This document shows positions 21,093-46,456 of a DNA stretch of 64,000 nt, in pieces. The stretch's first letter is position 1. Each line of letters opens with the position of its first letter. The notes beneath the pieces are model-generated. The model was given only the letters and a program-made list of their open reading frames with translations. It made no database searches and had not been told where the DNA came from. The stretch spans positions 12,051-76,050 of the forward strand of contig MKSW01000040.1 in the NCBI GenBank assembly GCA_001897425.1, given 5' to 3'. Origin of the DNA: Actinobacteria bacterium 69-20 (GTDB lineage Bacteria > Actinomycetota > Actinomycetes > Mycobacteriales > Nakamurellaceae). Both the position numbers and the translations under genes were made by a program.

Positions 21093-22193
21093 CTACGCCC
21101 CCGGGACGAGCGTGTGCCTCCAACCGTGCGGGTCCGGCGCCGCGCCCTGCTGGATCGCGACCAGCGCCTCGCGGAGCTTGAGCGTCACCGGGCCGGGCTG
21201 CCCTCCGCCGATGGTGAACTCGCCGTCGGCCGAACGGACGGCGGCCACCGGCGTCACCACCGCCGCAGTGCCGCACCCGAACACCTCCGTCATCTCGCCC
21301 GCGTCGACGGCCTTGCCCCACTCGTCGGTGGAGATCCGTCGCTCGGTGGCCGTGTAGCCGAGGTCACGCGCCAGTGTGATCAGCGAATCGCGCGTGATCC
21401 CGGGCAGCAGGGAGCCGTTGAGCGCGGGCGTCACGATTTCCACGGTTCCGGCATCCTCGGTCCCGTAGACGAAGCACAGGTTGTTCGTGCCCATCTCCTC
21501 GACCCAGCGCCGCTCCACCGCGTCGAGCCAGACCACCTGGTCGCAGCCGCGTTGCGCCGCCTCCGCCTGGGCGAGCAGGGACGCCGCGTAGTTGCCGCCC
21601 GTCTTCGCCTCACCGGTGCCGCCGGGGGCAGCCCGCACGTATTCGGTGGACAGCCAGACCGTGACCCCGGTCGCGCCGTGCGAGAAGTAGATCCCGGCCG
21701 GCGACGCGATCAGGCAGTAGGTGACCTTCTTCGCCGGATGCACGCCGAGCGCGACCTCCGACGCGAACATGAAGGGGCGCAGGTACAGCGACGTATCCGG
21801 GGCCGTCGGCACCCAGGCGCGGTCGACGGCGACCAGTTCGGCCAGCGAGTCGATGAACAGTTGCTCGGGCAATTCCGGCAATGCGATGCGGTGCGCGGAC
21901 CGGGCGAACCTAGCGGCATTGGCCTCCGGCCGGAACGCCGCCACCGATCTGTCGGGCTGCTGGTAGGCCTTGAGACCCTCGAAGATCTCCTGGCCGTAGT
22001 GGAACAGCATGGTCGCCGGGTCCAGCGTGAACGGGGCGTAAGGAACCACGCGTTCGTCGTGCCAACCGCGGTCGGCATCCCAGTCGATCAGCACCATGTG
22101 GTCGGTGAAGTACTTGCCGAAACCGGGCGCGGCGAGGATCTCGGCGAGCCGGTCGGCCGACGTGGGATGGGTGGTGAGCGTCCGGGAAAACAT
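21093..22193 (-). CDS. ilvE: branched-chain amino acid aminotransferase
   Basis: A 366-residue fold-type IV PLP aminotransferase for the last step of Ile, Leu and Val synthesis. Family signatures are [14 protein letters not shown], the PLP lysine in [12 protein letters not shown], and [13 protein letters not shown] plus [16 protein letters not shown] 22193 gives the family start [12 protein letters not shown], with GAGGAG 12 nt upstream. It neighbours gcvT as in M. tuberculosis (Rv2210c-Rv2211c). Confidence 0.96.
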
Positions 22194-37462: not shown

Positions 37463-38731
37463 TCAGGCGCTCTTCTCCTGCGGCTCCGCCGGCCGCCGCC
37501 GCGGAACGATCGTGGGATAGACGTTGTCCCGCACCGTTTGCGCGGTGACCACGACCCGTTCCACGTCGTCGCGGCTGGGTACGTCGTACATCGCCGGCAT
37601 CAAGACTTCTTCGATGATCGCCCGCAGCCCACGCGCCCCCGTCCCGCGCAGGATCGCTTCGTCCGCGATCGCCACGAGCGCGTCGGTCTCGAATTCGAGT
37701 GTGACGCCGTCCATCTCGAACAGGCGCTGGTATTGCTTGGACAGCGCATCCCGCGGCTCGGTAAGAATCGCGATCAACGACTCCTTGTCAAGGTGTTTCA
37801 CGTTGGATACGACCGGCAGGCGTCCGATGAATTCGGGGATCAGACCGAATTTGATGAGGTCCTCCGGCATCACTTCCGCGAACACGTCCGAGTTGTCGAT
37901 ATCGAACTTGCTGCGAACCTCCGCGCCGAACCCGAGTCCGCGCTTCCCCACCCGTTCACCGATGATCTTTTCGAGCCCGGCGAAGGCACCCGCGACGATG
38001 AACAGCACGTTCGTCGTATCGATCTGGATGAATTCCTGATGCGGATGTTTGCGCCCACCCTGCGGCGGCACCGCGGCCGTCGTCCCCTCGAGGATCTTGA
38101 GCAGGGCCTGTTGCACACCCTCGCCCGAGACATCGCGGGTGATCGACGGGTTCTCGGACTTCCGGGCGATCTTGTCGACCTCGTCGATGTAGATGATGCC
38201 GGTCTCGGCCCGCTTCACGTCATAATCGGCGGCCTGGATCAGTTTGAGCAGGATGTTCTCGACATCCTCGCCCACGTATCCCGCCTCGGTCAGCGCGGTC
38301 GCGTCCACGAGCGCGAACGGCACGTTGAGCATCTTCGCGAGCGTTTGCGCGAGATACGTCTTGCCGCAACCGGTCGGGCCAAGCAGCAGGATGTTCGACT
38401 TCGCGATATCCACAGGTTCCGGGCCGCGGTCCGGGCCGGCCTTGATGCGCTTGTAGTGGTTGTACACAGCCACCGACAGGGCCTTCTTCGCGGCGTCCTG
38501 ACCGATGACGTACTGGTCGAGGTACTCGCGGATCGCCGCCGGTTTGGGGAGCTCGTCGAGGCGGACCTCACTGGTCTCGGCGAGTTCCTCCTCGATGATC
38601 TCGTTGCACAGCTCGATGCACTCGTCGCAGATGTACACGCCGGGTCCGGCGATCAGCTTGCGCACCTGCTTCTGGCTCTTCCCACAGAAAGAGCACTTGA
38701 GCAGATCGCCCCCTTCACCGATACGTGCCAT
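37463..38731 (-). CDS. clpX: ATP-dependent Clp protease unfoldase ClpX
   Basis: A 422-residue AAA+ unfoldase. The N-terminal zinc domain has CSFC and CDECIELC; Walker A is GPTGCGKT, the pore loop is GYVGED, Walker B is [11 protein letters not shown], and the ClpP-docking loop is in KRGLGFGAE. It is downstream of clpP1-clpP2 on the same strand with a 122-bp gap. It would serve ClpP1P2 and possibly the second ClpP pair at 44-45 kb. Confidence 0.97.
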
Positions 38732-38853
38732 TGCGCCTCTCGCTCATCACCGTCACGGGCAACCCGCTACTTCACCTTATCGGCCAAGACTAGTCGCCGT
38801 GAATGGTTTCCGGGCGGCGATTGCGCGGCGCGCCGCGCGGCCGCCGCACCGGT

Positions 38854-39537
38854 TCACTCGTCGAGCTTGCGGTACGTCAGGACCTCGTCGACCAACCCGT
38901 AGGCCTTCGCCTCTTCGGCCGTCAGGATCTTGTCCCGGTCGACGTCCGCGCGAATCTCTTCCGGCCGTTTGTTGGAGTGGCGGGCGAGGATCTCCTCCAT
39001 GGCGGTGCGCATGCGCTGGATCTCGGCGGCCTGGATCGCTAGGTCCGACACCTGCCCGTACGCGCCCTCCATCGCCGGCTGGTGGATCAGGATGCGGGAG
39101 TTCGGCAGCGCGAGTCGCCGACCCGGGGTCCCGGCCGCCAGCAGCACCGCAGCCGCGGACGCCGCCTGCCCGAGGCAGACCGTCTGAATATGCGGCCGGA
39201 CGAACTGCATGGTGTCGTAGATCGCCGTCATCGACGTGAACGATCCGCCTGGCGAGTTGATGTACATGGTGATCTCGCGGTCCGGATCCGTCGACTCCAA
39301 CGTCAGGAGCTGCGCCATCACGTCATTGGCGGAGGCATCGTCGATCTGGACGCCGAGGAAGATGATGCGCTCCTCGAAGAGCTTGTTGTACGGGTTGGAC
39401 TCCTTCACCCCGTAGCTCGTGCGTTCCACGAAGGACGGCAGGATGTATCGCGCCTGTGGCGACGCCAGGGCCCGGTCGAACGCGTTGCCGTGCGCCTCCA
39501 GCCGAACGTCGGGGGCGTGGCCCCTGAATGTCGTCAT
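38854..39537 (-). CDS. clpP2: ATP-dependent Clp protease subunit ClpP2
   Basis: A 227-residue ClpP. The catalytic Ser is in [16 protein letters not shown], His in [10 protein letters not shown], and Asp in [17 protein letters not shown]. The [20 protein letters not shown] stretch identifies it as the mycobacterial ClpP2 type. ATG 39537 gives a roughly 28-residue leader; in-frame starts closer to the core are possible. It lies 31 nt downstream of clpP1. Confidence 0.95.
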
Positions 39538-39568
39538 CGTCGATCCACTCTCCGCTCGGTTGTCCCGG

Positions 39569-40216
39569 TCACTTGCTCGTCGCAGCTTCGGATGCGGCGC
39601 GCGAGATGACCTTGTCGATGAAGCCGTACTCCAACGCCTCCGGCGCCGTGAACCACCGGTCGCGATCGGAATCCGCGATGATCCGCTCAACGGTCTGCCC
39701 GGTGTGCTGCGCGATGAGCTCAGCCATCTCGCGCTTCGACCGCTCGAGCATGTCCGCCTGAATGGCGATATCGGCCGCCGTGCCGCCCACGCCGGCGCTC
39801 GGCTGGTGCATCAGGATCCGTGCATGCGGGAGCGCCGAACGCTTGCCCGGCGCCCCGGCGGTGAGCAGGAACTGCCCCATCGACGCCGCCAAGCCCATGG
39901 CTGTCGTAGCGACATCCGGCTCGATCAGCATCATCGTGTCGTAGATCGCCATCCCCGCCGTGACGCTGCCGCCCGGGGAGTTGATGTACAGCGTGATGTC
40001 CTTCTCCGGATCCTCGGCGGCCAGCAGCAGCAGCTGCGCCGTGATCTCGTTCGCGTTGGTGTCCTTCACTTCCGTGCCGAGGATGATGATGCGTTCCCGC
40101 AGCAGCCGCTCGGACACGCTGTCGCTGAGCGACATGCCCGGCGTGCCACGCATCACCGCGGGCAGGATCTCGGGCGCGGCCTGTTCGATCGCGGCCAGCG
40201 GATGGGCCTTTGTCAC
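39569..40216 (-). CDS. clpP1: ATP-dependent Clp protease subunit ClpP1
   Basis: A 215-residue ClpP with all triad residues: Ser in [14 protein letters not shown], His in [11 protein letters not shown], Asp in [20 protein letters not shown] 40216 follows GAGGAG by 5 nt. ClpP1 and ClpP2 form the essential mixed tetradecamer of Mycobacteriales. Confidence 0.95.
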
Positions 40217-40436
40217 GTCGTCTCCTCGCAAGAAAGATGCTGGTAGAAAACCGCAGTTCCAGGTCGCCCACCGCCGGTGAGGGCCGTGCGTGTGACCCCG
40301 GCGTCAGGGCGCCCGATGACCTTCTGGGCGCACCCGCCGTGTGCTCATCTCCGACCCTAGCGACGGCCACCGGCGCCGCGCCGCCATCGCGGGGCCATGT
40401 TCGCTGTCAGCGTGACGGCGCCCGTGCGGGTGCCGC

Positions 40437-41903
40437 TCAGTCCGCGGTGAGCGCGGATTGCGGTGATTCACCTTCCGGCGCAGCGTCTGCCTCGGCCGCC
40501 GTATCCCCCGCCGCCGTGCTCTCGACATCAACCGAGTCGTCGGACGGCTCTTCGACTGGCTCGTCGACTGGCTCGTCGACCGCCTCGATGCCGAACAGCG
40601 TCGCGAAGTCCAGCGTCTCCCCGGACAGGCTGGTGATGGTCGCCTGCTGGACGACCGACATCAGCGCCTTGCCGCGCCGCACCTCGGCGAACACACCGCC
40701 GAGCTGCCCGGCCTGCTGCAGCTGCTGGAAGTACTCGTCCGGACGCATCCCGAATCGTTGCGCGTTGTACATCACGCGCTCGGAGAACTCCTGCTGGGTC
40801 ACGGTCGCGGCGGTCGCGTCGGCGAGCGCATCGAGCAGCAGCTGGGTGCGCACCGCCTCGTCGGCGGACGTCTCGATCTCTGCGTCGAGCTCCTCCCGGG
40901 TCTGGCCGATGCTCTCCAGATGGGCGGCGAGCGCATCCTCGTCGTGTCCGAACGAGTGCACCGCCTCGTGCTGACGGCCCTCGATCTCCGCCTTGCGGGC
41001 GCCCTCCGGGACCGGGATCTCGGTGACCTCGAGCAGGTGCGAAAGGACCTTGTCGCGCGCGTCGCCGGCCCGCTGCAGATTCTTGACCCGGGTGATCTTC
41101 TCCTTCAAGTCGTCCCGCAGGGCGGCGACGGTATCGAATTCGCTGGCCAGTTGGGCGAAGTCGTCATCGATCTCGGGAAGGGTGCGCTCGGCGACGGCCG
41201 TGACGGACACCTCTATATCGGCGTCCTCGCCCGCGTGCTCACCGGCGACCAATGGGCTCGTGAACGAGGCCGAGTCGCCGGCGGACAACCCGGTCACCGC
41301 TTCGTCGATGCCGTCGATCAACTCGCCGCTGCCGACGCGGTAGGTGAGCCCGTCCGCGGTGGCGTCGGCCAGCGGCTCACCACCGATCGAGGCGCGCAGA
41401 TTCACCGTCACCTGGTCGCCGTCGGCCGCCGGCCGATCGACCGTGACCGTCGTCGCGAAGCGATCGCGCAGCGCCTCGACCTGCTCGTCGATATCCGACT
41501 CGGTGACCTCGAGGTCGTCGACGGTGACGCTGATGCTCGACAGCTCGGGCAGGGTGATCTCCGGCCGGACGTCGACCTCGGCGGTGAACTCGAGGACCTC
41601 GCCGTCCTCGATCTTGCTGATCTCGATGTCCGGCTGCCCGAGCACGCTGAGCTCTTCCTTGCCGACCGCCTCGCCGTACTTCGCCGGGACCGCGTCGTTG
41701 ACGACCTCCGTCAGGATGCTGCCGCGGCCGAGCCGCGCCTCCAGGATCTTCGCGGGCACCTTCCCCGGGCGGAACCCGGGAATCTTCACCTGACCGGCAA
41801 GAGCCTTGTACGCCTTGTCGAAATGCGGCTTCAACTCGTCGAACCCGACCTCGACGGTGAGCTTGACCCGGGTCGGGTTCAGGTGCTCGACGGTGCTTTT
41901 CAC
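40437..41903 (-). CDS. tig: trigger factor chaperone / prolyl isomerase
   Basis: A 488-residue ribosome-associated chaperone. The ribosome-binding domain contains FRPGKVP (signature GFRxGK), the FKBP-like domain spans about residues 155-240, and the C-terminal arms follow. The last 50 residues are an acidic Glu/Pro/Asp repeat tail (EPVDEPVEEPSDD). It lies upstream of clpP1-clpP2-clpX on the same strand, as in M. tuberculosis. Confidence 0.96.
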   Translation of the reverse strand: MKSTVEHLNPTRVKLTVEVGFDELKPHFDKAYKALAGQVKIPGFRPGKVPAKILEARLGRGSILTEVVNDAVPAKYGEAVGKEELSVLGQPDIEISKIEDGEVLEFTAEVDVRPEITLPELSSISVTVDDLEVTESDIDEQVEALRDRFATTVTVDRPAADGDQVTVNLRASIGGEPLADATADGLTYRVGSGELIDGIDEAVTGLSAGDSASFTSPLVAGEHAGEDADIEVSVTAVAERTLPEIDDDFAQLASEFDTVAALRDDLKEKITRVKNLQRAGDARDKVLSHLLEVTEIPVPEGARKAEIEGRQHEAVHSFGHDEDALAAHLESIGQTREELDAEIETSADEAVRTQLLLDALADATAATVTQQEFSERVMYNAQRFGMRPDEYFQQLQQAGQLGGVFAEVRRGKALMSVVQQATITSLSGETLDFATLFGIEAVDEPVDEPVEEPSDDSVDVESTAAGDTAAEADAAPEGESPQSALTAD

Positions 41904-43119: not shown

Positions 43120-43926
43120 GTGCATCCCGGTGCCTTCGGCGACCCGACCGTGGCGGGCGCCTTCGCCGACGACGCCTATGCCACGGCCAAGGGCTTCGTG
43201 CGCACGCGGGTGCTGCACCGGCAGCTCGTCGAGCACCTGCCCGCTCCCCCGGCGGCGGTGCTGGACGTGGGCGGCGGCGCCGGGCACCAATCGCTCCAGC
43301 TGGCCGAGATCGGTTACCATGTCACGCTTCTCGATCCCTCGCCGGCGATGCTGGACAAGGCACGGGAACGGTTGGCGCGACTCGATCCGGCCGCGCGCGA
43401 GCGGGTCGCGCTGATCGAGGCGCCGGGTGAATCCGCCGGCGCTGCCACCGGGGGCCGGGTATTCGACGGGGTGCTGTGCCATGGCGTACTCGGCTACCTG
43501 GACCGGCCCGATCCGATGGTCGCCGAACTGTGCCGGCTCGCCGCGCCGGGCGGCATCGTGTCGATCATGACCGGCAACGCGGCGACCATGGCGCTCCGGC
43601 CGGCACTCGAGGGGCGGTGGGGTGACGCACTCGCCGCGTTCGACTCCGATCGCGAGATCGGCGTGCTCGGCGTGCCAGCCCGTGCGGACACCGTGGAATC
43701 GCTGAGCAATTTGCTGCGCGCCGGCGGCGTGGAACCTGTTGCGCGGTACGGCGTCTGGCTGTTCGTGGACCTGCTGGAGTTCGGCGCCAGCCGCGCGCTG
43801 GACGACAGCGCCCTCAACGACCCAGCGCAGTGGCCGGCCATCGCCGAGGTCGAGTTCGAGGCGAGCCGCCGCGACCCCTACCGGCAGCTCAGCCGCGTCT
43901 TCCACCTCGTCGGCCGCAAGGCATAG
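43120..43926 (+). CDS. class I SAM-dependent methyltransferase
   Basis: 268 residues. SAM-binding motif I is VLDVGGGAGHQSLQLAE, the acidic ribose-binding residue is in VTLLDPSP, and motif IV is FDGVLCHGVLGYLDRPD. Overall it resembles the SmtA/CmoM group, which methylates tRNA wobble uridine derivatives, but substrate assignment is uncertain. GTG 43120 is used. It precedes the second clpP pair by 112 bp. Confidence 0.85.
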   Translation: MHPGAFGDPTVAGAFADDAYATAKGFVRTRVLHRQLVEHLPAPPAAVLDVGGGAGHQSLQLAEIGYHVTLLDPSPAMLDKARERLARLDPAARERVALIEAPGESAGAATGGRVFDGVLCHGVLGYLDRPDPMVAELCRLAAPGGIVSIMTGNAATMALRPALEGRWGDALAAFDSDREIGVLGVPARADTVESLSNLLRAGGVEPVARYGVWLFVDLLEFGASRALDDSALNDPAQWPAIAEVEFEASRRDPYRQLSRVFHLVGRKA

Positions 43927-43981
43927 CGAGCCGCCAAGCGCGTCGCCAACCACGGCGGCCGCACCGCCCCGCTCCGGGCGG

Positions 43982-43998
43982 ATCTGCCGTGAGCAGCG
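43982..43998 (+). promoter_or_regulatory. possible PopR/ClgR-family half-palindrome before clpP3
   Basis: ATCTGCCGTGAGCAGCG resembles the Streptomyces PopR box TTCTGCC-N3-GGCAGAA, with most of the left arm and GCAG of the right arm kept. It lies 40 nt upstream of the first paralogue of the second clpP pair. The match is partial, so this is a candidate only. Confidence 0.25.
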
Positions 43999-44038
43999 TG
44001 GGCCGTGCGGTCGCCCGCGTCCGGGGCACGCTCGATAC

Positions 44039-44659
44039 ATGAACGAGAAACAGCGACGACCGGGGTACCGGTTGGACGAAGAGATCTACCGCCGCTTGTT
44101 CGAGCACCGCACGCTGCTGCTCGGCGAAGTGCTCGAGGATTGGAACAGCAACCGGCTGTGCAGCGGCCTGGTGCTACTTTCCACCGAGAACCCGGTCGCG
44201 GATATCCGGCTGCTCATCAACTCGCCGGGCGGGTCGGTGCCCGGCATGCTGGCCATCCGCGACTGCATGCGGGCGATTCCGAACGACGTTGCGACGATCA
44301 ATCTCGGCATGGCCTACAGCGCCGGGCAGTTCCTGCTGAGCGCGGGCGCGAAAGGGAAGCGTTACACGCTGCCGAACGCAAAAGTCCTGCTGCACCAGGG
44401 ATCTGGCGGTTTCGGCGGCACCGCGATGGACATCGCCATCCAGGCGGACGATCTACGGCACACCCGAGACACCGTGCTGGCATTGATCGCCGAGGACACC
44501 GGCCAGGACATCGCCACCATCGAGCGAGACTCCCGGCGCGACCGGTGGTTCAGCGCCGCCGAAGCGCGGGACTACGGCTTCGTCGACGAGATCGTCGAAT
44601 CGGCCTGGCAGATCCTGCCGCGACCGGCACACACCGTCGGGCTGGGGGTCCGGCCATGA
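44039..44659 (+). CDS. second-set ClpP subunit with complete catalytic triad
   Basis: A 206-residue ClpP paralogue (here called ClpP3). The Ser is in NLGMAYSAGQFLLSAG (variant of GxAASxG), His in VLLHQGSGGFGG (the usual Pro after HQ is Gly), and Asp in [27 protein letters not shown] forms the oxyanion strand. ATG 44039 gives MNEKQRRPGYRLDEE. Its stop overlaps the next clpP start (ATGA), so the two subunits are made together and probably assemble as mixed rings. Confidence 0.93.
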   Translation: MNEKQRRPGYRLDEEIYRRLFEHRTLLLGEVLEDWNSNRLCSGLVLLSTENPVADIRLLINSPGGSVPGMLAIRDCMRAIPNDVATINLGMAYSAGQFLLSAGAKGKRYTLPNAKVLLHQGSGGFGGTAMDIAIQADDLRHTRDTVLALIAEDTGQDIATIERDSRRDRWFSAAEARDYGFVDEIVESAWQILPRPAHTVGLGVRP

Positions 44660-45249
44660 GCAGCTACACCATCCCCTACGTGACCACCCGCACACCGCAG
44701 GGTGAGCGGACCGTCGACGTCTACAGCCGGCTGCTGGCCGAACGCGTCATCTACCTCGGCACCGCCATCGACGACGGTGTCGCGAACGCCGTCATCGCGC
44801 AGCTGATCCACCTGGAGTCGGAGAGCGCGGATCAGCCGATCCACCTGTATATCAACTCGTCCGGCGGATCTATCCCGGCCACGCTGGCGATCTACGACGC
44901 GATGCAGTACATCCGCCCTCGGGTCGAGACGACCTGTGTCGGCGAGGCGGCCGCGACGGCGGCGGTGCTGCTCGCGGGCGGCGCGCCGGGGCGGCGACAC
45001 ATGTTGCCGCACGGACGAGTTGTCATCCACGCCCCGGCGGCGCAGAGTCACGGCGCGATCCCGGACCTGGTGCTCGAAGCCGACGAGGTCGAGCGGGTGC
45101 GCATCATGCTGGAGGAGATCCTGGCCACGCACACCCACCGCACGCCAGCGCAGGTGCGTGAGGACACCGACCGCGACCTCATCCTCACGCCGCAGGCCGC
45201 GCTGGAGTACGGCGTGATCGATTCCATCCTGACGAACCGCGAGACGTGA
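44656..45249 (+). CDS. second-set ClpP subunit lacking the catalytic serine
   Basis: A 197-residue ClpP paralogue (here called ClpP4). The serine site reads CVGEAAATAAVLLAGG, whereas ClpP2 in this window has [16 protein letters not shown]: the nucleophile position (residue 100, GCG at 44953-44955) is Ala. His (VVIHAPAAQ) and Asp (DTDRDLILTPQAALEYG) are kept, and INSSGGSIPA replaces INSPGG. It is therefore predicted to be proteolytically inactive and structural or regulatory. It is coupled to the active paralogue by a 4-bp overlap. Confidence 0.93.
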   Translation: MSSYTIPYVTTRTPQGERTVDVYSRLLAERVIYLGTAIDDGVANAVIAQLIHLESESADQPIHLYINSSGGSIPATLAIYDAMQYIRPRVETTCVGEAAATAAVLLAGGAPGRRHMLPHGRVVIHAPAAQSHGAIPDLVLEADEVERVRIMLEEILATHTHRTPAQVREDTDRDLILTPQAALEYGVIDSILTNRET

Positions 45250-45252
45250 CGC

Positions 45253-45699
45253 TCACGCCGCAAGGCAGAGCGGCCCGGTCGGCTGAACTCCACGCGGTCG
45301 CACCGACGGTGAGACGGCGATGACGTCGTAACGTCGCGCGACGCGACGCGACAACTCGCGCAGAGTCAGGCCCAGCGCACCCGCGACGGCCGCCAGCATC
45401 TCCGACGACGGATCCTTGCGGCCCCGTTCGATCTCGGACAGGTACTGCGGCGACATGCCGGCGCGTTCCGCGACATCGGCGATGCGCTCACCACGATCGT
45501 TTCGCTCCGCACGCAATTGCTCGCCGACAACCTTGCGCCACAACGGTTCTGGCCCGGCCAGCTGCCGCTGGTGTCCCGCCTGCTCCGGCTCCTTCGGCTG
45601 CGACCGCGGTGCGGCAGGCTGTGACACTGCTTGTGACGACACTGCCTGTGACGCGCGCTGCTCGGGCCGTGGCGCGGGGAACATGATCACTTCGCCCAT
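45253..45699 (-). CDS. ClgR/PopR-like HTH regulator
   Basis: About 148 residues. A disordered N-terminal half rich in Gln, Ser, Ala and Pro precedes a Cro/CI helix-turn-helix with the ClgR-family signature LWRKVVGEQLRAERNDRGE and GMSPQYLSEIERGRKDPSSE. It is convergent with and 3 bp away from the second clpP pair. In Streptomyces the ClgR paralogue PopR controls clpP3-clpP4, so control of the neighbouring pair is a natural inference. ATG 45699 is used; ATG 45684 is equally possible. Confidence 0.88.
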   Translation of the reverse strand: MGEVIMFPAPRPEQRASQAVSSQAVSQPAAPRSQPKEPEQAGHQRQLAGPEPLWRKVVGEQLRAERNDRGERIADVAERAGMSPQYLSEIERGRKDPSSEMLAAVAGALGLTLRELSRRVARRYDVIAVSPSVRPRGVQPTGPLCLAA

Positions 45700-45802
45700 A
45701 GTCGTGACGGTAGACGTGTCGGAGCCGATCCCGACAACGATTCGCTGCAGGCTGAACGCCGCCGCCGGTGGGTCGCGCCGCCGGAATATCCGACCCGGCA
45801 CG

Positions 45803-45815
45803 GAACATCGTCATA
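45803..45815 (-). promoter_or_regulatory. TATGACGATGTTC motif copy upstream of the ClgR-like gene
   Basis: An exact match on the minus strand, about 104 bp upstream of the ClgR-like start codon and just beyond the dedA stop, pointing towards the regulator gene. It shares a 17-bp block with the copy upstream of tig. Confidence 0.4.
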
Positions 45816-45820
45816 CTCGA

Positions 45821-46456
45821 TCATTCTTGGTGACGACGGCGGCGATAGCGCACCAATCCCCGTGCGACCAGCAGCGCGATCGCGACAACCACGCCGATCC
45901 CGACGTAGACCTCATACCGCCGGAACACGTCATAAAAGGCACTGATGTGATCGCCGGCCAGGTAGCCGAGGGTGATCCACAGACCGCACCACAGGGCGGC
46001 GCCGAGCAGGTTGAACGCGAGGAACTTGACCCAGGCCATCTTCGAGATGCCGGCGGCGATGCCGTTGAGCTGACGTAGTCCCTCCACGAAGCGCGCGAAC
46101 GTGACGACCGCGCCGCCGTACCGCGCGAAGAAGCCTTCGACCCTGGTGAGCCGAGATTCGGTGAGAAACACGTACTTTCCGTATTTCAGCGCGAGCGGGC
46201 GCCCGCCGGCGTGGCCGATCAGGTATCCCACGTTGTCCCCGGCGATCGCGGCGACCCAGGCCACCAGACCGAGGATGATGACGTTCAGGCCACCGGCCCC
46301 GGCGTCCACCGCGGCGGCGATGAGGATCGTCTCGCCGGGAACCGGAATCCCGAAGTCTTCCAGGAATATCGCCGCCGCGACCGCGATATAGCCGTACCGA
46401 TCGAGCAGTGCAGTGAAGGCGCCGAATGCGCCCGGCAGCTGCCCGACATCGATCAT
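45821..46456 (-). CDS. DedA-family membrane protein
   Basis: A 211-residue polytopic membrane protein. The DedA hallmarks are FLEDFGIPVPGETILIAAA with the acidic re-entrant segment, GDNVGYLIGHAGGR, and FARFVEGLRQLNGIAAG with the conserved arginine. DedA proteins act as lipid scramblases for undecaprenyl phosphate or phospholipid. ATG 46456 has GAGG upstream. It lies 4 bp from the upstream TDT gene on the same strand, so the two are probably an operon. Confidence 0.93.
   Translation of the reverse strand: MIDVGQLPGAFGAFTALLDRYGYIAVAAAIFLEDFGIPVPGETILIAAAVDAGAGGLNVIILGLVAWVAAIAGDNVGYLIGHAGGRPLALKYGKYVFLTESRLTRVEGFFARYGGAVVTFARFVEGLRQLNGIAAGISKMAWVKFLAFNLLGAALWCGLWITLGYLAGDHISAFYDVFRRYEVYVGIGVVVAIALLVARGLVRYRRRRHQE

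Follow-up and report, generated by a model that had tools for sequence, protein, structure and literature searches.

A second clpP pair with a predicted non-catalytic subunit and a linked popR-like gene in a Nakamurella-like actinobacterium

Why should a bacterium keep, besides its housekeeping Clp protease, a second pair of clpP genes of which one product lacks the catalytic serine? The question is posed by a locus at positions 44039-45699 of a 64,000 nt stretch of contig MKSW01000040.1 from Actinobacteria bacterium 69-20 (the whole stretch is called the window below), in which two overlapping clpP genes, here designated clpPa and clpPb, are followed by a convergent popR-like gene. With a probability of about 0.72, we read the pair as encoding a backup core, brought into use on failure of ClpP1P2, in which a ClpPa ring would only cut and a ClpPb ring would only dock. 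Judged from its sequence, the locus represents the clpP3-clpP4-popR module of actinobacteria, as in Streptomyces, here in a Nakamurella-like genome: adjacent ClpP1-type and ClpP2-type genes, a ClgR/PopR-family helix-turn-helix (HTH) gene, a partial PopR box and a regulator ending in Ala-Ala are all present. The modules of S. lividans and S. coelicolor have the same two genes, an activator of the PopR type that is degraded by Clp, and a PopR box (PMC9765437, PMC12607617, PMC9775585), and in Streptomyces acidiscabies (L068) a popR-like gene is likewise convergent with the pair.

The accessory pair and its catalytic triads

The genes clpPa (44039..44659, plus strand, 206 aa) and clpPb (44656..45249, plus strand, 197 aa) overlap by 4 bp (ATGA), and both products score far over the PF00574 cut-off in a profile search. 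The genome, estimated to be 98% complete, has four matches to this family, namely the accessory pair at 44039-45249 and the canonical clpP1-clpP2 (about 38854-40231, minus strand), which lies beside clpX and a trigger-factor-like gene (the latter name is our own); the initial annotation, which had placed two overlapping clpP genes in addition to the canonical pair, is borne out. Compared with the canonical proteins of the same genome, ClpPa scores 184 bits to ClpP1 and 113 to ClpP2, and ClpPb scores 198 bits to ClpP2 and 153 to ClpP1; the first is classed as ClpP1/ClpP3-type and the second as ClpP2/ClpP4-type. The ClpPa monomer model has a predicted local distance difference test (pLDDT) value of 91.6, its top fold match is the M. 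tuberculosis ClpP1P2 entry 5e0s (51% identity), and its top sequence match is M. smegmatis ClpP1. The ClpPb monomer model (pLDDT 87.1) also has the ClpP fold and matches ClpP chains generally, M. tuberculosis ClpP2 among these.

The triad of ClpPa is intact (S94/H119/D168), with the catalytic Ser94 (codon AGC, 44318..44320, plus strand) in the motif GMAYSAGQF, and ClpPa is the predicted catalytic subunit. In ClpPb, predicted to be non-catalytic, the His and Asp are kept (A100/H125/D174) and the position of the nucleophilic Ser, in the motif GEAAATAAV, is occupied by Ala, encoded by GCG at 44953..44955 (plus strand). These residues are as first annotated, and ClpPb combines a ClpP fold with an incomplete triad, which is what distinguishes a ClpR-type protein.

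Is the Ala real? The same GCG codon occurs at clpPb codon 100 in one other genome, G014, from a close but distinct organism (two of our loci, L006 and L035, are one and the same contig of G014 and count as one independent genome, not two), so a sequencing error is unlikely. The closest named contig is a Nakamurella metagenome-assembled genome, with 98% identity in ClpPb, and Ser is absent from the nucleophile position in all of the 25 best of 80 named contigs (L035-L059); since its loss is common to 25/25, the Ala is not a matter of chance. Sequencing error and sporadic mutation, two of the outcomes that the initial annotation had named as fatal to its proposal, can both be set aside on these grounds, and comparison with relatives shows the Ala to be clade-wide and the loss of Ser or His to recur in other Actinomycetes.

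Recurrence of triad loss

How widespread are such pairs? The class was surveyed using the dead ClpPb as the query, covering 394 genomes, of which at least 376 had a match, and the best-scoring 109 loci were taken (L118-L226; the triad is intact in 39, lacks Ser or His in 64 and lacks only Asp in 6). These were pooled with the loci of the window's genus and the named actinobacterial loci, and identical proteins were removed. Where a locus had any popR-like match it was counted as popR-linked, giving 140 distinct ClpPb proteins (the window's included) with 42 intact and 98 degenerate triads, of which 92 lack Ser or His and 6 lack Asp alone; the proportion of dead ClpPb is inflated because the query was itself a dead protein and only top-scoring loci were taken. 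The partner ClpPa has an intact triad in all 139 readable popR-linked loci. The control set of 71 distinct canonical pairs was drawn from the same survey (64 of 80 genomes passing E 1e-80) and from the genus loci, and there the triad is intact in 71/71 ClpP2 and 70/71 ClpP1 proteins, one being unreadable. For the comparisons below, fourteen accessory-looking pairs without a popR-like match (nine dead, five intact) were added by hand, making a set of 153 accessory pairs.

The substitutions are varied. Among the named contigs, Ala is found at the nucleophile position in the Nakamurella rows, the Propionibacteriaceae rows and Catenulispora, among others, Trp in 9/10 Nocardioides rows, Phe in Arthrobacter and Paenarthrobacter, and Gly in Agromyces; Ser is present in the one remaining Nocardioides row (L060, 61% identity) and in the distant rows read from L070 on. 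In the window's genus, 11/17 genomes carry two clpP pairs, with Ala in the ClpPb of six and an intact triad in five. A different solution is seen in Streptomyces acidiscabies L068 and a Streptomyces-like group (f22), where ClpP4 keeps its Ser and has Gly for the catalytic His, whereas in the window Ser is replaced and His kept. Gly for His was read in the Streptomyces-type ClpP4 of L068, L184, L197 and L209, which points to a non-catalytic ring in the model ClpP3P4 backup protease as well. In a further group (f23), the nucleophile position is occupied by Glu in 11 loci and by Ala in one, and five loci keep Ser and lack Asp; at L160, L162, L170 and L171, Glu at the nucleophile position is accompanied by Asn or His in place of the catalytic Asp. 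Given the relatives with Ser but without Asp, it looks as if the Asp was lost first in this group.

Trees were built from ClpPb alone, with the triad columns masked, and from ClpPa and ClpPb joined. The intact or degenerate state needs six changes on the trees, or five if only Ser and His are counted, and well-supported branches alone require four changes of the intact state. Parsimony counts by themselves do not give the direction of change; loss is favoured because the canonical outgroup proteins are all intact. ClpPb falls among the accessory ClpP2-type proteins of actinobacteria (the trees are without cyanobacterial ClpR), and the Streptomyces-type loss of His is separate on the tree from the loss of Ser seen in the window. 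Four proteins labelled as accessory in both trees (L013, L193, L198 and L226) have no popR match, lie next to or within the canonical group, and are all intact. From these topologies, about five losses of the triad appear to have occurred, and in every case among the sampled loci it is the ClpP2-type accessory subunit that is affected.

Docking residues and ring partners

What could a ring without active sites contribute? In the Streptomyces housekeeping core, as described in PMC9765437, ClpP2-S131A is fully active and ClpP1-S113A is not, the ATPases dock on ClpP2 only, and mutants of the ClpP2 pocket lose activity. The ATPases of M. tuberculosis require the ClpP2 patch (PMC4416901), and M. 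tuberculosis is reported to grow with a dead ClpP2, the strain that also has a mutated ClpP1 patch growing like controls (PMC9067928). That engineered, forced-asymmetry ClpP1P2, with a dead ClpP2 site and a broken ClpP1 patch, places cutting and docking on different rings, as is proposed for the window; it is a mutated housekeeping core, whereas here a natural accessory core is predicted from sequence only.

The docking residues fit such a division. In the window, ClpPb has Y65 and Y85, and ClpPa has L59 and A79 instead of Tyr and an aromatic residue. The docking Tyr is present in 152/153 accessory ClpPb and 52/153 accessory ClpPa, compared with 71/71 canonical ClpP2 and 66/71 canonical ClpP1. 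Together with Tyr, Phe or Trp at the second position it is found in 129/153 accessory ClpPb (151/153 if His is counted) and in a single ClpPa of the 153, the canonical figures being 71/71 for ClpP2 and 53/71 for ClpP1. Pocket loss and triad loss are both common in accessory pairs, and no more than this is claimed.

In cyanobacteria, ClpR shares a ring with ClpP3, and ClpPb might similarly be mixed into the ClpPa ring, where it would thin out the cutting sites per ring. The 4-bp overlap, from which the two products would be made in step, suits this arrangement, and non-catalytic ClpR subunits are a known precedent (PMC7966870). However, ClpPa is closest to ClpP1 and ClpPb to ClpP2 by the bit scores given above, the Streptomyces ClpP1P2 core is argued in PMC9765437 to consist of two separate homoheptamers, and the uneven distribution of the docking Tyr suits separate faces, so that shared rings are unlikely here. 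The initial annotation had pointed to the mixed rings of cyanobacteria and plastids for comparison; the division of labour within Actinomycetes, in which ClpP1 cuts and ClpP2 docks, is the closer match. The ClpR proteins of cyanobacteria, plastids and apicoplasts do resemble ClpPb in being ClpP paralogues without a working triad, and ClpR of P. falciparum is also described as having no prodomain (PMC7966870). They belong to another lineage, and plastid ClpR lies in a ring with ClpP1 (PMC7966870), whereas the predicted dead subunit here is of the ATPase-docking ClpP2 type.

The absence of a prodomain has a counterpart in the accessory pairs. From the clpPa stop to the codon equivalent to Tyr4 there is a median of 5 nt in the 153 accessory pairs and of 95 nt in the 71 canonical pairs, and because of this short gap there is no room for a ClpPb propeptide, unless translation starts inside clpPa; ClpPb apparently starts at its mature N-terminus, without a propeptide. 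Like the accessory pair, the actinomycete ClpP1P2 core is encoded by a ClpP1-type gene followed by a ClpP2-type gene, and its fold is the same; it differs in the propeptide room of clpP2 and in its uniformly intact ClpP2 triads.

It could also be supposed that ClpPb or ClpPa partners with the housekeeping subunits, remodelling ClpP1P2 instead of forming a core of its own. ClpP_ADEP, a ClpP1-like accessory protein of S. hawaiiensis, is reported to pair with ClpP2 (PMC12607617), and in this genome the accessory pair is near the canonical operon. Re-pairing is nevertheless improbable, given that both genes are present in 139/140 distinct popR-linked cases (the remaining one, L175, is cut by a contig end). 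There is also the residue two positions N-terminal to the catalytic Asp, which we take to be a ring-ring contact position: it is acidic in 70/71 canonical ClpP1 proteins (one unreadable) and in 37/153 accessory ClpPa, so that in 116/153 ClpPa a non-acidic residue may mean a different ring contact. In the window this is ClpPa residue 166 (44534-44536), an Arg, which may mark such a changed contact. As to distances, about 4 kb separates the accessory module (44039-45699) from the canonical clpP1-clpP2-clpX block (37463-41903); in G014 both clpP pairs are near each other on one contig, and in G004 they are on different contigs.

Finally, ClpPb could be a decaying copy en route to loss, and the many different ways in which its triad residues have been replaced might be read as a sign of this. 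Both subunits are under purifying selection: the ratio of nonsynonymous to synonymous substitution rates (dN/dS), computed for 26 pairs of relatives chosen by hand (the window is a member of five), ranges from 0.02 to 0.31 in ClpPb and from 0.02 to 0.33 in ClpPa. Of the two partners, ClpPb has the lower value in 20/26 pairs, and in 16 of the 20 pairs having a dead ClpPb; between the window and L006 it is 0.037 for ClpPb and 0.126 for ClpPa. Together with the near-universal retention of the docking Tyr in ClpPb, these ratios speak against pseudogene decay, which is highly improbable.

Regulation of the putative backup core

The popR-like gene (45253..45699, minus strand; start ATG at 45699 or 45684) belongs to the HTH_3/XRE family and ends 3 bp past the clpPb stop (45249) on the opposite strand, in agreement with the convergent ClgR-family gene of the initial annotation. 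Its product scores 49.7 bits to HTH_3 and 57.9 bits to the NCBIfam ClgR model, below the cut-off of 170, and because of this its identity as PopR rests on position and similarity. Homologues were found in 143/215 loci examined, downstream of and convergent with the pair in 143/143; in 124 of these the distance to the clpPb stop is at most 250 nt. The 72 loci without a popR-like match include canonical, non-actinobacterial and several cut-short loci, and also the two accessory Nakamurella loci L011 and L016. The window protein ends LCLAA, its final Leu-Ala-Ala (codons 45256..45264, minus strand) being a predicted Clp degron; among 140 distinct homologues, 131 end in Ala-Ala and 124 in Leu-Ala-Ala, compared with 19/490 and 1/490 ClpP reading frames. 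A second ClgR-like HTH stretch is present elsewhere in the genome (L295, G000:C25:24271-24558), with one in-frame TGA.

Upstream of the pair, 41 bp before the clpPa start, a tandem palindrome at 43968..43997 (plus strand) matches the PopR box of S. lividans, as printed in PMC9775585, at 18/24 positions and is a predicted PopR site. Only 1/3000 shuffles of the intergenic stretch reached 18/24. Scores of 18 or more occur in 93/139 distinct popR-linked loci against 1/71 canonical upstream regions, and five loci match the box at 24/24. A scan of 43880-45900 for sigma-70 promoters and terminators found none. Directly upstream of clpPa is a methyltransferase gene (43120-43926), for which the top NCBIfam match, CmoM, is far under the cut-off.

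Which ATPases might serve the accessory core? The genome has three genes with PF10431, a ClpX-like and a ClpC-like gene with the Leu-Gly-Phe (LGF) loop and a ClpB-like gene without it (all named by motif and gene order), and there is no private LGF-bearing partner among these matches. Because only the ClpX-like and ClpC-like genes bear LGF, the same ATPases probably serve both the accessory core and ClpP1P2, and the canonical clpX (37463..38731, minus strand) is a probable shared partner.

In Streptomyces, PopR is destroyed by ClpP1P2 (PMC9765437), and clpP3P4 of S. lividans is described as PopR-driven and expressed when ClpP1 or ClpP2 is non-functional (PMC12607617). Since the regulator ends in Leu-Ala-Ala and Streptomyces PopR is destroyed in this way, the accessory pair should respond to failure of ClpP1P2. 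The PopR-like activator would probably be destroyed continually by ClpP1P2 and its ATPase; were ClpP1P2 blocked, it would accumulate, bind at 43968-43997 and turn on clpPa-clpPb. The product would be a double-ring core of one ClpPa heptamer and one ClpPb heptamer, in which ClpPa would be the source of all seven cutting sites and ClpPb, without cutting, would offer ClpX or ClpC a docking face. For this organism we infer the ring composition, the activity and the regulatory loop alike. Of the accessory protease first proposed, with one active and one non-catalytic subunit type, the subunit types stand by sequence, and its regulation separately from ClpP1P2 probably does not.

Several observations weigh against a backup core of one cutting and one docking ring. 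The structure predictions are of monomers and say nothing on ring composition. An intact ClpPb triad is found in 47/153 accessory pairs, and therefore the death of the ClpPb ring is permitted, not required. A linked loss of the ClpPa pocket and the ClpPb triad is unsupported by independent pairs on the joined tree (4, not significant). Among 15 canonical ClpP1 proteins of the window's genus, all have the Tyr and only four the second-position aromatic; because 11/15 lack it already, the change in ClpPa of this genus is mainly the further loss of Tyr. As for regulation, the popR-like gene was not found at the two accessory Nakamurella loci named above, 46/139 popR-linked loci have box scores below 18, and one other site in the 64 kb, at 21204, also matches at 18/24 by chance.

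A more speculative and rather doubtful proposal for why both features are lost is that the backup core is an inhibitor-proof spare, each subunit lacking a site of ClpP poisons where it can be spared, and PopR deploying the spare when a poison stops ClpP1P2. ClpPa would be without the apical pocket bound by antibiotics of the acyldepsipeptide (ADEP) type in Streptomyces ClpP1, and ClpPb without the serine acylated by beta-lactones. Two reports fit: ClpP3P4 is described as ADEP-insensitive (PMC12607617), and beta-lactones kill S. coelicolor strains without clpP3 and clpP4 (PMC9775585). Against it, ADEP binds ClpP2 and not ClpP1 in M. tuberculosis (PMC4416901), and in the accessory pair ClpPb keeps its pocket and ClpPa its serine.

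Alleles of this kind are mentioned in a single sentence of a 2022 paper, and the locus is accordingly a variant of something already known. A literature search, with subscription papers such as Viala 2000 outside it, did not find the recurrence across the class or the restriction to ClpP2-type subunits, nor, within the same scope, the pocket pattern, the missing propeptide or the linkage of dead forms to popR.

For actinobacterial ClpP1P2, experiments have assigned cutting to one ring and docking to the other, and evolution appears to have repeated this about five times in accessory pairs. The same reasoning predicts that the Streptomyces ClpP3P4 backup protease would have only seven cutting sites. 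The finding may also bear on ClpP-directed drugs, since the sites on which these act may not be the same in a spare core. Such pairs would offer a simple system in which to ask what purpose a ring without active sites serves, a question that, in the case of ClpR, is called poorly understood in PMC9067928.

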